From Timaviella obliquedivisa GSE-PSE-MK23-08B (GTDB taxonomy: Bacteria; Cyanobacteriota; Cyanobacteriia; Elainellales; Elainellaceae): DNA of 64,000 bases. Within the stretch, counting starts at the first letter, position 1. Each line of letters starts with the position of its first letter. The stretch covers positions 186,001-250,000 of the forward strand of contig JAHHII010000001.1 in the NCBI GenBank assembly GCA_019358855.1, written 5' to 3'. Shown in pieces: positions 26,415 through 58,807 of this stretch. Position numbers and translations under genes: made by a program. The notes under the pieces were generated by a model that did not search any database, had not been told where the DNA came from, and saw nothing but the letters and a program-made list of their open reading frames with translations.

Positions 26415-27992
26415 ATGGATAGGAGAGATTTGATTGCTAGAGGTTACTTTCCTAGAGAACTCCCTCCACCATTTAAAACCAGCTCACTTGCTCACTTTGT
26501 AGTCTCTAACATTTCCTTACAACTAACTTCTAGAACTAATTCAAAACTTTACATACATAGCCATGTAAGATATGGCTCTTTGAGAAGAAAGTTAAGCATT
26601 CCAAATCCAGCTTTTTTTGTACAGATAGCCAAAGTTATAGATAATAATTGGAATGACATTAAATTAATAACTCAAAAATCTAATTTCTCGAAGAGCAAAC
26701 CTGTCCACACACCACATCCAAAGCGTAATCGCTCAATTTCACCTTTACTTGATTTTCCTGATCTTCCTAAGGAAAGAGCTAAGAATAGAGCAATTGGTCG
26801 ATATGCTTTACAGACAGATATTTCACAGTTTTATCAGTCTATTTATACGCATAGTATTCCTTGGGCTATACACGGAAAAGAAATTGCAAAAAGCCAAAGA
26901 AATGATCCCTCTTTACTTGGAAATCAACTCGATAAATTAGTTCGTAATAGCCAAGATAGTCAGACGATAGGTATTCCTATTAGCCCTGACACGTCGCTAA
27001 TTATCGCTGAATTAATACTTTGTACTTTAGATTTAGAGCTAGAAAGACGAATTTCAAGCTCATGTTTACATCCATATAGAGGTTTTCGCTACAGCGACGA
27101 TTATGAATTTGTTTTTCTAACTCGTTCAGAAGCAGAGACAGCTTTAAGCCATCTTCAGAAGATTTTGTCAGCTTTTGAACTAACTCTTAACCCTAACAAA
27201 ACTAGAATTGTCGAGTTACCCTGCTCTTTGGACGCTACTTGGGTTTTAGAATTATCTGATTATAAGTTTAGCAATAGTAAGCTTGCTCAAATGCAGGATA
27301 TTATTCGCTATTTTGATCGCGCTTTTCAAATTTCTAAGGAGTTTCCTCAAGAGCCAGTGCTTAAGTATGCGATTGCAAGAATTGAAAATTTTCATGAACT
27401 TCATCAGGATAATTGGTCATTGCTCGAAAGTTTGCTATTGCAGTCAGTAACAATTGAATCAAGTACTTTACGCGATGCCTTATCAATATTTCAGAATAGT
27501 CAAATTAAAAATTACCCAGTTGACCTAGACTCACTCGAAAAAAATCTTAATCTGCAAGTTCTTCAACATGCTCCGCTCGGACATAGCAGTGAAGTGGCTT
27601 GGGCTATATGGTCAATAATTGTATTCAAACTGTCTATCTACGAAGAAGCCAGTCAAGCAATTTCTGACATGGAGGATTCTATTGTTGCAATTTTAGCGTT
27701 GGATGCACAACAGCGAGGGAGAATCCCAAAAGGGTTAGTTACCAGGCAATGGGAACAGTTTTTAACAGAAGACGAGCTTTATGGAAATCAATGGCTTTTT
27801 TCATACGAAGCAAATCGACAAGGATATCTATCTACTGGGTATGATCACGTCTCCAGAGATCCTTGGTTTTCCCAATTAAAGCAAGGCAAAGTTACGTTTT
27901 ACGACAGGGCAACACCACTCTTTATTCCGCCTGGAGAAACTAGTGGTCCGTCTGGTGAGATTGAGGCATTCGGTATAAATTCTAAAAGGTAA
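26415..27992 (+). CDS. reverse transcriptase of the Abi / Unknown-Group (defence-associated) class
   Basis: 525-residue RNA-directed DNA polymerase. Palm motifs are clear: motif A QTDISQFYQSIYTHSIPWAIHGK (Asp 135), motif B GIPISPDTSLIIAE (183-199), motif C RYSDDYEF (YSDD, 226-229), motif D LNPNKTR. The YTHSIPWA and GIPIxPDTS forms are characteristic of the Abi-like/UG reverse transcriptases linked to phage defence, not of group II introns or retrons. Residues ~300-500 are predicted helical and lack a known enzymatic domain, like the alpha-helical repeat tail of that class; no maturase or integrase is present. The gene is AT-rich relative to neighbours. An MntA/HepT pair follows within 100 bases. 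I cannot assign a DRT/UG number. Confidence 0.9.
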   Translation: MDRRDLIARGYFPRELPPPFKTSSLAHFVVSNISLQLTSRTNSKLYIHSHVRYGSLRRKLSIPNPAFFVQIAKVIDNNWNDIKLITQKSNFSKSKPVHTPHPKRNRSISPLLDFPDLPKERAKNRAIGRYALQTDISQFYQSIYTHSIPWAIHGKEIAKSQRNDPSLLGNQLDKLVRNSQDSQTIGIPISPDTSLIIAELILCTLDLELERRISSSCLHPYRGFRYSDDYEFVFLTRSEAETALSHLQKILSAFELTLNPNKTRIVELPCSLDATWVLELSDYKFSNSKLAQMQDIIRYFDRAFQISKEFPQEPVLKYAIARIENFHELHQDNWSLLESLLLQSVTIESSTLRDALSIFQNSQIKNYPVDLDSLEKNLNLQVLQHAPLGHSSEVAWAIWSIIVFKLSIYEEASQAISDMEDSIVAILALDAQQRGRIPKGLVTRQWEQFLTEDELYGNQWLFSYEANRQGYLSTGYDHVSRDPWFSQLKQGKVTFYDRATPLFIPPGETSGPSGEIEAFGINSKR

Positions 27993-28088: not shown

Positions 28089-28400
28089 ATGAAAACCGCG
28101 ATCGCCTTACCAATTGATCAAATTGAGAAATTCTGTCAACACTGGCAAATTATAGAACTCTCCCTCTTTGGTTCTGTCTTGCGGGACGACTTTCATGCAG
28201 ACAGCGATATCGATTTCCTCGTTGCCTTTGCTCCTACAGCCAACTGGGGTCTGCTTGATCACGCCCAAATGCAGGAAGAACTCGAAATCCTGCTAGGCAG
28301 ACCCGTTGATTTAATCAGTAAACGGGCGATCGAGCGCAGTTCCAATTGGATTCGTCGTCAAGCAATTCTCTCTACCGCCCAACCTATCTATGTCGAATAG
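28089..28400 (+). CDS. mntA: MntA-type nucleotidyltransferase antitoxin
   Basis: A 103-residue minimal nucleotidyltransferase with the signature FGSVLRDDFHADSDIDFLV (GSxxR...SDxD), intact for catalysis. Family knowledge: MntA neutralises the HEPN RNase HepT by AMPylating (oligo-adenylating) a tyrosine near its active site. The stop overlaps the start of the HEPN gene by 11 bases, the usual arrangement. Direct 38-bp repeats flank the pair. Confidence 0.93.
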   Translation: MKTAIALPIDQIEKFCQHWQIIELSLFGSVLRDDFHADSDIDFLVAFAPTANWGLLDHAQMQEELEILLGRPVDLISKRAIERSSNWIRRQAILSTAQPIYVE

Positions 28401-28743
28401 CCGCGATCGTGCTTCCTTACTCGACATTTCTAGAGCCGCTCAGAAAATCCTGCGATACAAGTCGGGCATGGATAAAGCAACATTCTTGAGCGATGACAAA
28501 ACCCAGTCTGCGATCGTGTTCCAACTTTTGATTATTGGTGAAGCGGTGAAACGCGTTTCCTCGGAACTGCGATCGCAATATCCAGAGATTCCTTGGTCAC
28601 TCATTGCCAGAATGCGAGACAACTTGATTCATCGATATGATGACATCGACCTAGATGAAGTTTGGAAAACCTCAGAGGAAGACATTCCAACACTGCTGAC
28701 TGCTTTAGAACCTCTACTAACACAGGAAGAATTGACCGAATAG
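28390..28743 (+). CDS. hepT: HepT-type HEPN RNase toxin
   Basis: A 117-residue helical HEPN-domain protein. The catalytic Rx4-6H motif is present as RDNLIHRYDDID, with the tyrosine directly after the His that is the AMPylation target in MntA/HepT systems. The N-terminal helix SLLDISRAAQKILRYKSG is typical (family members begin DILxAxxxIxxY). Expected to cut RNA when freed from MntA, giving abortive protection or plasmid-style maintenance. Confidence 0.92.
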   Translation: MSNSRDRASLLDISRAAQKILRYKSGMDKATFLSDDKTQSAIVFQLLIIGEAVKRVSSELRSQYPEIPWSLIARMRDNLIHRYDDIDLDEVWKTSEEDIPTLLTALEPLLTQEELTE

Positions 28744-28942: not shown

Positions 28943-29320
28943 ATGGCAGCAACACCCAACCAGAATCTAGAGATCATTCGGACAGAACGCGGATTGACGA
29001 TCGCAAATACACGCATCAGTATCTACAACGTCATGGATTTTCTGAAGGCTCAGTATCCACCCAAGCTCATTCGGGAGCGCTTCAATCTCACCGATGCCCA
29101 GATTAATGCCGCCTTGGCTTACATTGAGGTGAATCGCACTCAAGTAGAAGCTGAATATCAAGAAGCCCTACGCACTAGAGAAGAGATTCATCAGTATTGG
29201 GAAGAACGAAACCGTGAACACTTTGCTCAACTCATGACAAAACCGCACAAACCAGAGCAAGAGGCGCTCTGGGCAAAACTTGAGGAACAGAAGGCGGGGC
29301 GTGTTTCAATAAAAGCATGA
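28943..29320 (+). CDS. DUF433 domain protein, probable antitoxin
   Basis: 125 residues with the DUF433 HTH-like domain in the first 70 (IANTRISIYNVMDFL, PKLIRERFNLTDAQINAALAYIE), followed by a charged helical extension. DUF433 proteins are usually encoded right before a DUF5615 PIN-like protein and behave as antitoxins in that pairing. Here the stop codon overlaps the start of the partner by four bases (ATGA). No direct functional evidence beyond family and context. Confidence 0.85.
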   Translation: MAATPNQNLEIIRTERGLTIANTRISIYNVMDFLKAQYPPKLIRERFNLTDAQINAALAYIEVNRTQVEAEYQEALRTREEIHQYWEERNREHFAQLMTKPHKPEQEALWAKLEEQKAGRVSIKA

Positions 29321-29709
29321 ATTTTCTGGTTGACTACAATCTAGATGGTTACGCTGCTGTCTTATTTGGCATCTTGATGCAACGCGGTTGGCTTGAGTTT
29401 TTTCCCATCCAGTTCGTTACTTTTAGAGACGTTGGACTACCGATGGATATTGACGATCGCGCGGTCTGGAATTACGCTCAAGCAAATCAAATGATGATTC
29501 TCACCGCAAACCGCAACATGAAGGGCGAGGATTCCTTAGAGCAAGTGATGCGTGAAGAAAATGGCTCGGCTTCGTTTCCCATCATTACAGTTGCAGATCT
29601 GACTCGTCTTGACGAGACGGAATATCGAGAACGATGTGTTGACCGTCTTGTTGAAATCGTGCTGGAACTTGAGAATTATATGGGGGTCGGTCGGCTTTTC
29701 ATTCCATAG
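29317..29709 (+). CDS. DUF5615 PIN-like protein, probable toxin
   Basis: 130 residues of the DUF5615/Mut7-C-like PIN fold: N-terminal FLVDYNLDG with an acidic residue where PIN nucleases bind metal, MDIDDRAVWNYAQ, and MILTANRNMKGEDSL. Translation is probably coupled to the upstream DUF433 gene. An RNase role is inferred from the fold; residues after ADLTRLD are less typical. Confidence 0.8.
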   Translation: MNFLVDYNLDGYAAVLFGILMQRGWLEFFPIQFVTFRDVGLPMDIDDRAVWNYAQANQMMILTANRNMKGEDSLEQVMREENGSASFPIITVADLTRLDETEYRERCVDRLVEIVLELENYMGVGRLFIP

Positions 29710-56078: not shown

Positions 56079-56242
56079 TCAATTATGCACCACAAAGACT
56101 CCGAATACATTAGCCCAGAAACCTTACTCGCTGCTAGATTGAGTCGGTGCCAGGTAACGGATCGCTGAAAGGAAGGGAATTAACGTGAAAGAGAAGTGTT
56201 TACAAGCTTTGAAAAATGGCTAGGACTGTGATGCGCTACAGT

Positions 56243-58702
56243 TCACAAGTCTTTGTGCAAGAGAAGAGAACAACACAAAACTCTACATAATGCACCTAAT
56301 GCATCCAAAGTCGGAACCATTCCTTGGGAGGTCAAAAAAGATGGGTTGATTTGTTCATAACTGAGCCACTCATTGTTTCTTCTCCAGCCAACGCGATCGC
56401 CAAACTCTTCCCAGATTTCGTCTTCAGGATCTTCGCCGTCTAGCTTACCACCACAAGCCACATAGATATCCTTCTGCACACTAAACCCAAAGTGACCCTT
56501 ACTGAAATCAACCCATAGCTTATCGATCGCCCTCAACTCCTCACAAGGAAAATTCAAAAGTTCCTCTGACGTGAAGTGTTGCCCCACCTCCTTACCTACC
56601 GTTGTAATCATCAACCTGTAGGTTTCCTCATCTGCCTCTTTCCACTGCTGCCCAGTCAGCAATACCTCTAACTTCTGATACCGTGAGTCTTGCACCGTTT
56701 GTTTCAACGCTGTCAATTCCCGCTCTACATCTGCCTTCAGTTGAGAATCCACCTGCTTACTCGTCGCCTGCAAACAAGTATAGGCAAGATCTGTTGCGCC
56801 AAGGCTCATTGCTTTTCTGATCAGCGTCGAGGGTTTCTTAATTTGCGCCGCATATAGCAAAATTGTTTGCCTCCACCAGTCATCGGCAAAGTACTTGTAC
56901 AGTAGTTGTTCCTGGTTTTGTTGCGCAATTTGTGTTGCTGCCAAATATTCTTGAAAACTCAGGTGGGCAAATTCGTATTCTTCTTCCCGCTTCACCAGCA
57001 GTTCGCTAATCTGTTCCACCTGCTCTAGAAACTCGGTTGCCTCAACGGTTTCTGCTTGAGCTTGCAAATATTGCGCCAACAGTTGCAGTAGGTCATGGCG
57101 CTCTAGCCGTTCTTGCCGCTGTTTCATCATCTCTAGCGCCAGCATTTGTAAAATCACCTGTGCCTCGCATTGAGTCAACAACGTTTCTAGCTTGCGGGCA
57201 TTAGGACGATCTTTGAGTTGCAACCGACAAATTTCCTCATACAGGTTGACGCAGCGCTTCGGTAAGTCTGCACCCGGATACTGCCGATGAAACCGCAGCA
57301 TCATATTCAGTAGCAGTGGATTTTTTGCCAAATCACGAAGCTGAAGTTCCTTTCGGTCTTCAATTTGTGCCAACAATTCAGTTGTGGCTTGCAGGGCTAG
57401 TTGGCGCACACTGGGGGTATCACGCCCTCCGTGGTTATAGCGCTCTTGGCACAAATACCAGCGTTCTACAAAATCTTTGCGCTGGTCGGCATTAAACTCT
57501 TGCACCCACAGTAAGGTGTCCAGTTCCAAACGTTCCCCCGTCTGCTCTTTATAAGCTTTGGGACGCGAAGTGACAATAAATACTGATTTTGGGTATTGCT
57601 GCATTTGCTGATTGATCCACTCTGACACTGCTGGACGTTGCAGCTTTGCCACCTCATCAAAACCATCTAACATCACGAGCATTTTCCCAGATCTAAGCTT
57701 TGCCTGTACCCAAGCAGTCGGTAAGGCATCGCCATCTGGCAGGTTAGCAGCATGATGAGTAGCAATCAGTTCAGGCAAACTCGGTGGCTCTGGTTGCGTC
57801 AACAACTCTCGATGTTTTCGCAGCGGCAAAAACACCGGAATACGAGGCGGCACATCATAGCGACTCTGCTGTCGAGAACTGTAAATGTAGGCAATATGCT
57901 TGAGCAATGTCGTTTTACCATAACCACCCCACGCCAAAACCACCAGTTGCCGACAGTTCCGTACCGTATCTGCTCGTGCTAAAAAATCCCAAATACTGAG
58001 TCCATTAGACAGGCAGCGTTCCAGATCAGAGGGAGTAAATCCGGGAAACATGGCGCTGGTGGATAGCGCTAAGGGCACAAACACCTCTTCAAGCAGAGTT
58101 GTAAAAATGCCTTCTTGCTGAGGGATGCCTTCCGATCGCATATCTTCAACGGCATAGCGTTGGCTGTCTAGATATCGCTCCTCAATCTCTTGATCGGATA
58201 ATCCTTCAGGTTGGCTTGGTTTGGGTAAGCTCGATAGAGATTTGTTAGCAGGTAAAAGCAAGTTAACTGCTGCTAGAATTCCTTGGGCAATGTCATACAA
58301 AGCTTCAGCTTGATTGCTCCAACAGGTCACAGGAACCAAGTCTTTCGGATAGGCTTGCAGCGTATTGTAAATCGATTGTTTCCACAAACAAGGCTCTAGT
58401 AAAACAGGAATTACACAGGCTTCTCCTGCTTCGTGACGCTCCATTGCGCGAGGATATTCCACCTTCATGCAAAAGTCTGAACTTAAAAAGTTGGGGCTAA
58501 TCAGTAGCAGAATAATGTCGGCAGCGTTAAGGCGATCGTCAATAACATTTGCCCATTGGCTACCCGCAGGAATTTGGCGATCGCACCAAGTCACCGCTAT
58601 TTGCTGATGTTCCAGAATCTTCAATTGTTTTGCTAACTGATTTCGCAACTCTTCATCAGCATGAGCATAGGAAAAAAAGATACCGATCGGCTGTTCTGCC
58701 AT
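56243..58702 (-). CDS. TIR-NACHT-GUN4 protein (NLR-like STAND receptor)
   Basis: 819 residues in three parts (numbering from ATG 58702; GAGG lies upstream). TIR domain 1-148: IGIFFSYAHADEELRNQL, LLISPNFLSSDFCMKVEY, with Glu 82 at the place of the NADase glutamate, and ERHEAGEACVIPVLL. NACHT NTPase about 245-600: P-loop WGGYGKTTLLK (Lys 263), Walker B LVMLDGFDEV, sensor FIVTSRP, and the winged-helix end FAHLSFQEYLAA. GUN4 domain about 675-800: LLTGQQWKEADEETYRLM, LLNFPCEELRAIDKLWVDFSKGHFGFSVQK, FGDRVGWRRNNEWLSY. GUN4 binds chlorophyll/bilin precursors. Likely an immune-type sensor; activity is inferred. Confidence 0.92.
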   Translation of the reverse strand: MAEQPIGIFFSYAHADEELRNQLAKQLKILEHQQIAVTWCDRQIPAGSQWANVIDDRLNAADIILLLISPNFLSSDFCMKVEYPRAMERHEAGEACVIPVLLEPCLWKQSIYNTLQAYPKDLVPVTCWSNQAEALYDIAQGILAAVNLLLPANKSLSSLPKPSQPEGLSDQEIEERYLDSQRYAVEDMRSEGIPQQEGIFTTLLEEVFVPLALSTSAMFPGFTPSDLERCLSNGLSIWDFLARADTVRNCRQLVVLAWGGYGKTTLLKHIAYIYSSRQQSRYDVPPRIPVFLPLRKHRELLTQPEPPSLPELIATHHAANLPDGDALPTAWVQAKLRSGKMLVMLDGFDEVAKLQRPAVSEWINQQMQQYPKSVFIVTSRPKAYKEQTGERLELDTLLWVQEFNADQRKDFVERWYLCQERYNHGGRDTPSVRQLALQATTELLAQIEDRKELQLRDLAKNPLLLNMMLRFHRQYPGADLPKRCVNLYEEICRLQLKDRPNARKLETLLTQCEAQVILQMLALEMMKQRQERLERHDLLQLLAQYLQAQAETVEATEFLEQVEQISELLVKREEEYEFAHLSFQEYLAATQIAQQNQEQLLYKYFADDWWRQTILLYAAQIKKPSTLIRKAMSLGATDLAYTCLQATSKQVDSQLKADVERELTALKQTVQDSRYQKLEVLLTGQQWKEADEETYRLMITTVGKEVGQHFTSEELLNFPCEELRAIDKLWVDFSKGHFGFSVQKDIYVACGGKLDGEDPEDEIWEEFGDRVGWRRNNEWLSYEQINPSFLTSQGMVPTLDALGALCRVLCCSLLLHKDL

Positions 58703-58750: not shown

Positions 58751-58788
58751 AAAAAAGAGAGGCTGTAGGACTATCCCACAACCTCTCT
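58751..58788 (-). terminator. intrinsic terminator of clpC
   Basis: AGAGAGG (58756-58762) pairs with CCTCTCT (58782-58788) and the stem continues with TGT/ACA; on the minus strand a run of six T follows. It lies 20 bases after the clpC stop. Confidence 0.88.
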
Positions 58789-58807
58789 CACATAATCAAT
58801 CTACAAA

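Follow-up and report, generated by a model that had tools for sequence, protein, structure and literature searches.

Introduction

What does a GUN4 domain do at the C-terminal end of a protein built like an NLR immune receptor? This question is raised by a gene of the cyanobacterium Timaviella obliquedivisa GSE-PSE-MK23-08B, located in a stretch of 64,000 nucleotides (contig JAHHII010000001.1, positions 186,001 to 250,000) that was analysed as a whole and is called here the window; coordinates below are those of the window unless another locus is named. Fusions of GUN4 to TIR, kinase, caspase and other domains have been described in conflict systems, in cyanobacteria only (Kaur et al. 2020, PMC7159879; Davison 2005, cited there). 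The accessible parts of these accounts regard GUN4 as a sensor of tetrapyrroles and mention neither a variable tail, nor a 3' element, nor a RAYT partner. The preliminary description of the gene at 56243-58702, made from the sequence alone, took the same direction and proposed an NLR-like receptor whose ligand could be a tetrapyrrole.

Domain architecture and gene neighbourhood

The gene is a real one: an uninterrupted open reading frame of 819 amino acids (P0001, 56243..58702) starts with an ATG at 58702 and stops at 56243-56245, on the minus strand, a point left unsaid at first. Pfam searches for the three announced domains, TIR_2, NACHT and GUN4, recovered all of them above the curated cut-offs. 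The TIR_2 domain covers residues 8-128 (58319..58681, minus strand; 3.6e-16), and this part of the protein is also matched by the ThsB1 model of PADLOC (9.6e-46). In an alignment to the TIR of Cat1, Glu82 (codon 58457-58459) falls on the SDWCxxE glutamate. The earlier statement that this residue is placed for NADase activity is therefore borne out, and an activity of the NADase type, which goes with such an SxxC...E stretch, can be predicted. The match to ThsB recalls the Thoeris system, but the TIR is here fused to NACHT-GUN4 and a ThsA-like gene is absent among the neighbours, which are clpC and urease and urea transport genes (named by eye from the sequence).

The NACHT domain extends over residues 260-415 (57458..57925, minus strand; 1.1e-14). 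As first described, it combines a Walker A motif with its Lys-Thr pair (AWGGYGKT, residues 257-264, 57911-57934) and an acidic Walker B motif (DGFDE, residues 346-350, 57653-57667), both features of STAND/NACHT proteins. The alanine that opens the Walker A motif had been singled out as an oddity. It is in fact the rule in the family, being found in 55 of the 63 readable members, and is therefore no sign of decay; the Walker B motif reads DGFDE or DGLDE in 71/77 members. Single-sequence AlphaFold predictions of the whole protein and of its GUN4 end gave no usable model (pLDDT 47 and 37). An N-terminal effector, a NACHT with Walker A and B motifs and a C-terminal sensor-like part are shared with the bacterial NLR-like NACHT (STAND) defence proteins. 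In contrast to these, the window protein ends in a GUN4 fold that bears a hypervariable tail and not in LRR, TPR or WD40 repeats, and its defence role is putative. The architecture, the TIR effector and the intact-looking NACHT of the receptor proposed initially are thus supported by the sequence, but its tetrapyrrole ligand is not, as detailed below.

The gene is preceded by clpC in the same orientation. It is suggested to form a separate transcription unit, because a terminator-like hairpin of 16 pairs with a T tract lies between the two genes (58755..58789, minus strand). Among relatives, clpC and the TIR part adjoin each other in one MAG (L056) but in none of the stretches read around other family members; in this sister MAG, which belongs to the genus of the window, synteny with the window gene is lost after residue 95, on a low-coverage and possibly chimeric contig. 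Other genes on the plus strand of the window deserve mention. Positions 26415-27992 encode a reverse transcriptase of 525 amino acids, matched by the PADLOC models Drt6 (7.3e-177) and Drt4 (6.7e-170), which is likely a defence-associated enzyme and lies some 28 kb away from the gene of P0001. Right after it, an NTP_transf_2 nucleotidyltransferase and a HepT-like RNase are found in a toxin-antitoxin arrangement of the MntA/HepT type (28089-28743), and a DUF433 and DUF5615 pair at 28943-29709 is probably another toxin-antitoxin module.

A constant NACHT core with exchanged ends

Using the full protein as query, a match was found at E<=1e-100 in 79 of the 390 genomes of the class. Nearly all matches align only from about residue 172, where the conserved pre-NACHT/NACHT core begins (57926..58189, minus strand), and the N-terminal modules that precede it differ. 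Most members display by eye a short, hydrophobic, membrane-like N-terminus resembling two helices. A TIR N-terminus was seen in three proteins only: that of the window, G011, which matches it at 66% over residues 4-669, and G131, whose TIR is a different one. At the other end, some relatives (L028-L035) carry the NACHT core with a C-terminus other than GUN4, and several of these have long Asp/Arg-rich or repetitive ends resembling the variable domains of the formylglycine-enzyme-like type. Since the N-termini differ and some C-termini are not GUN4, these alignments indicate that the NACHT stays constant while effector and sensor are swapped around it, a pattern known from NLR-like proteins. 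The genome of the window contains a second NACHT-GUN4 gene (contig C6, L185 3351-5614), with a hydrophobic N-terminus, a G/T-rich tail and the 3' element described below, which a frame change splits after about residue 530. A plasmid collection yielded only distant NACHT matches and no copy of the element, and no relative was found in IMG/VR.

The GUN4 end and the tetrapyrrole question

The GUN4-like domain, derived from a chlorophyll-regulating protein, occupies residues 671-802 (56297..56692, minus strand) and is recognised by its Pfam profile at 4.2e-33. It is nevertheless not the full domain announced by the preliminary description: the match spans only profile positions 4-128 of 141, as compared with 2-141 in true GUN4 orthologues, and ends before the LxNxLR helix. 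The unmatched end, positions 129-141, is this tetrapyrrole-binding helix. In the alignment to Synechocystis GUN4 (1y6i), GHLP ends at position 208 and is directly followed by the LxNxLR motif, L209-N211-L213-R214, Asn211 included; in the window gene, the codons after G-M-V-P read TLDALGALC and the motif is absent. The same holds for the fusion genes that bear the conserved 3' element, 0/69 of which have the motif and which display instead a variable sequence from SyGUN4 position 209 on. All 28 true GUN4 genes that were fetched keep [ST]NQLRG and are devoid of the element.

These observations weigh on the reading in which Mg-protoporphyrin or a bilin, bound by GUN4, gates the TIR. A GUN4 fold detected at 4e-33 is in its favour, as is the published suggestion that GUN4 fusions are tetrapyrrole sensors (PMC7159879), but the helix that would hold the ligand has given way to random-looking sequence, here and in all 69 fusions, and GUN4 paralogues without the bilin Asn have been reported (PMC10156173). 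In Chlamydomonas GUN4 the Asn of the motif is required for bilin binding (PMC10156173), and in Arabidopsis R211 is important for porphyrin binding (PMC8967248); by comparison of the motifs, R211 is probably the Arg of LxNxLR. Some weak porphyrin binding by the GUN4-like domain may persist, because CrGUN4 retains porphyrin binding when it carries the N219G mutation (PMC10156173). A tetrapyrrole as the ligand of this receptor is, on balance, improbable. As a side observation, the PADLOC model PD-T4-6 (phage-defence kinase) matches residues 601-798 of P0001, the GUN4 end, at 2.7e-34; for this reason, kinase-GUN4 proteins seem to be covered by the model, which may miscall GUN4 fusions.

A hypervariable insert at the site of the ligand helix

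Directly after the G-M-V-P codons, in place of SyGUN4 L209 onward, the window gene carries a hypervariable G/T-rich insert of 43 nt (56269..56311, minus strand). The same organization is observed in the fusion genes at large, in which G[HEM][LF]P is followed by a stretch that defies alignment among relatives and then by the conserved element. This tail was found on NACHT, Ser/Thr kinase, caspase, TIR, FGE-sulfatase-like (FGS) and KAP-NTPase fusions of GUN4. In the 63 genes that could be anchored, the insert length ranges from 14 to 212 nt with a median of 49, the few longest values possibly including anchoring errors since the G-x-x-P anchor was chosen automatically, and its residue modulo 3 is distributed as 21/21/21. 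The base composition of these inserts is G.395, T.312, A.181 and C.113, and G+T makes up a median fraction of 0.78, as opposed to 0.53 over the 150 nt that precede them (n=57; Wilcoxon test, p=1.3e-10). Close relatives make the extent of the variation immediately visible. Among 12 pairs from one genus, which share sequences and are not independent, identity is 0.80-0.90 upstream and 0.74-0.91 in the element, but 0.25 in the insert, as compared with 0.24 for shuffled sequences; one of these pairs (L125/L130) consists of syntenic orthologues that remain at 88% identity over several kb. Two further details concern the stretch itself. Within the window insert, a short motif occurs twice (TGCATTA GG TGCATTA), a repeat that may record how the insert arose. 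The contigs of two relatives (L088, L090) break in the G/T-rich stretch or next to it, perhaps because variants are mixed there, or simply because such a sequence is difficult to assemble.

Hypervariable 3' ends of conflict-system sensor genes are also produced by diversity-generating retroelements (DGRs), and cyanobacterial DGR variable proteins with GUN4-like domains have been reported (PMC7517822). The tails differ from DGR products in that their length is free and the frame indifferent, as opposed to substitutions at template adenines, and in that neither a DGR reverse transcriptase nor a template was found. A search of the genome with the window insert, allowing up to 3 mismatches, returned only the insert itself, and the only reverse transcriptase detected there (RVT_1, E<=1e-3) is the DRT6/DRT4-type protein encoded in the window; a DGR therefore does not fit, and the probability that one makes these tails is very small indeed.

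A conserved 3' DNA element with stops in all frames

The insert is bounded downstream by a conserved DNA element of about 34 nt, CTCTTCTCTTGCACAAAGACTTGTGAACTGTAGC (56235..56268, minus strand), which overlaps the stop of the gene and contains stops in more than one frame; its consensus across the fusion genes is CTCTTCTCTCGCatcgAGACTTGTgAACTGTAGC. A second conserved box, TTTCAGCGATCCGTTACCTGGCACC, is located at 56146..56170 on the same strand, and at RAYT-bearing loci it stands beside the 3' end of the convergent RAYT gene. The protein endings LLSHRDL, LFSRAETCEL and LAQRLVNCSTSQ, dissimilar at first sight, are the three frames of one element DNA, and the element is read in frame 0, 1 or 2 in 25, 23 and 21 of 69 genes, respectively. 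Its stops are found at +23 in 63/69 genes, at +30 in 61/69 and at +37/+40/+46 in 58/69. When 60 genomes were searched at a tolerance of 2 mismatches, the element gave 49 matches in 27 genomes and the reversed pattern a single one. Thirty of these matches were fetched: GUN4 lies directly upstream in 27, two begin no more than 60 nt from the end of a contig, and the remaining one (L106) retains just the final portion of the gene end. Two elements are present in the genome of the window. The hairpin of the element is short and shows no convincing covariation, and GTAG occurs in many copies. Consensus folding of the downstream region as RNA revealed no structure, and an Rfam search of the gene end returned sub-threshold chance matches only.

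Low-complexity G/T-rich stretches and a frame that is not conserved could simply be the mark of a neutral, slippage-prone gene end devoid of function. Such an end would hardly be expected to be followed by an element that is conserved across cyanobacterial families in all frames, to hold unrelated inserts even where the flanks are 80-90% identical, or to occur, among the genes examined, on GUN4 fusions only. This explanation is consequently considered highly improbable.

A RAYT-like transposase at the end of the GUN4 genes

At many GUN4-fusion loci, a Y1 transposase gene (PF01797, 1.6e-17) is found directly downstream in convergent orientation. At the loci of relatives, its product has the HUH and Tyr motifs (NHVH, YIHxNP) and is RAYT-like; RAYTs are known to cleave single-stranded DNA and to join it again, and what they do for the host is an open question (PMC6006769, PMC3116915). 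The association is tight: 30 of the 32 distinct best-scoring copies are convergent to a GUN4 gene that ends 135-465 nt away, and the remaining two are no more than 200 nt away from the end of a contig. In a second sample, GUN4 was the neighbour of all six copies above 65% identity and of one of the two at 57-59%, as compared with 0/12 for the sister-clade Y1 transposases, at 42-47% identity. This sister clade (L190-L201) comes from one other family of the class, with several copies per genome in some cases; it has a conserved 3' flank of its own, which ends in CATCACGGATGCC, and GUN4 is absent from its surroundings. The GUN4-associated clade usually counts one RAYT per genome, and fragments of the RAYT gene remain at further GUN4 loci. 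A Y1 HUH protein, mostly in single copy, beside a conserved DNA element is also the hallmark of RAYT/TnpA-REP systems and REPtrons (PMC6006769, PMC3116915), but the present element is restricted to the 3' ends of GUN4 fusions, whereas REPtrons involve scattered extragenic palindromes with a GTAG foot.

The tail could then be the work of a site-specific selfish element, composed of the RAYT and a 3' region of about 130 nt and harboured at GUN4 3' ends, the inserts being scars left by repeated excision or insertion and of no benefit to the host. The relationship of the RAYT family to IS200 transposases, the convergence with GUN4 in every case where the contig extends far enough and the relics at other GUN4 genes are all compatible with such an origin. 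It accounts poorly, however, for the persistence of the element, with its sequence conserved, in genomes without RAYT, for the usual single copy per genome, and for stops in three frames, which look like an accommodation of the host gene. Moreover, no conserved sequence, and hence no second end, was found on the 5' side of the RAYT. A selfish origin is thus unlikely, if by no means negligible. A two-ended insertion sequence had also been considered and was dropped because this 5' flank is not conserved.

In the genome of the window and in that of its sister, the element is present but no RAYT of the GUN4-associated clade was found, and the DNA downstream of the window gene yielded no RAYT relic. 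The RAYT is therefore either not needed, acting from another family, or lost. Its absence from element-bearing genomes is the main weakness of a model in which it would be the agent of tail variation.

A proposed conflict sensor with a diversified tail

The reading that we favour, with a probability of roughly 0.6, is that GUN4 serves as a scaffold for a hypervariable tail in a conflict sensor of the STAND (NACHT) type, and that this tail is diversified at the DNA level. It draws on features read directly in the sequence: the domains and their conserved motifs, the hypervariability, the indifference to frame, the element and its association with RAYT. The GUN4-like fold would no longer be a canonical tetrapyrrole receptor and would display the variable C-terminal tail at the site of the old ligand helix. 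By analogy with NLR-like proteins, we expect the binding of a target by the GUN4-plus-tail end to switch the NACHT, whose oligomerisation would bring the TIR domains together; these could then cleave NAD+ or produce a nucleotide signal, leading to growth arrest or death in a presumed anti-phage response.

As to the tail itself, the DNA between the last conserved GUN4 codons and the 3' element would give way to novel G/T-rich sequence of unrestricted length. The element would supply stop codons in all three frames, so that any reading frame would be tolerated. The RAYT-like HUH single-strand nuclease is a candidate actor, in cis or in trans: it may open one strand at the element, where an untemplated G/T-rich addition would be followed by rejoining, a sequence of events that fits the form of the data. 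More tentatively, with chances that we place a little below even, cyanobacteria would possess a dedicated diversification system free of reverse transcriptase, in which a RAYT-like HUH nuclease acting at the element swaps the ends of GUN4 sensors for untemplated G/T-rich sequence and thereby arms kinase, caspase, TIR and NACHT effectors. Such a replacement can be likened to junctional diversity in immune receptor genes, the stops in three frames making every product translatable.

The variable tail and its element look like a so far undescribed way to diversify bacterial sensors; searches of the open-access literature returned no description of variable tails on GUN4 fusions, and an earlier account in subscription papers or preprints is possible. 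The novelty resides in this tail system, as a TIR-NACHT-GUN4 protein alone would only vary a known kind. If this reading is true, the GUN4 fusions, so far interpreted as tetrapyrrole sensors, would add a second scaffold for hypervariable sensors in bacteria to the C-type lectin fold of the DGRs, and the RAYTs would be given a concrete candidate function in their hosts.
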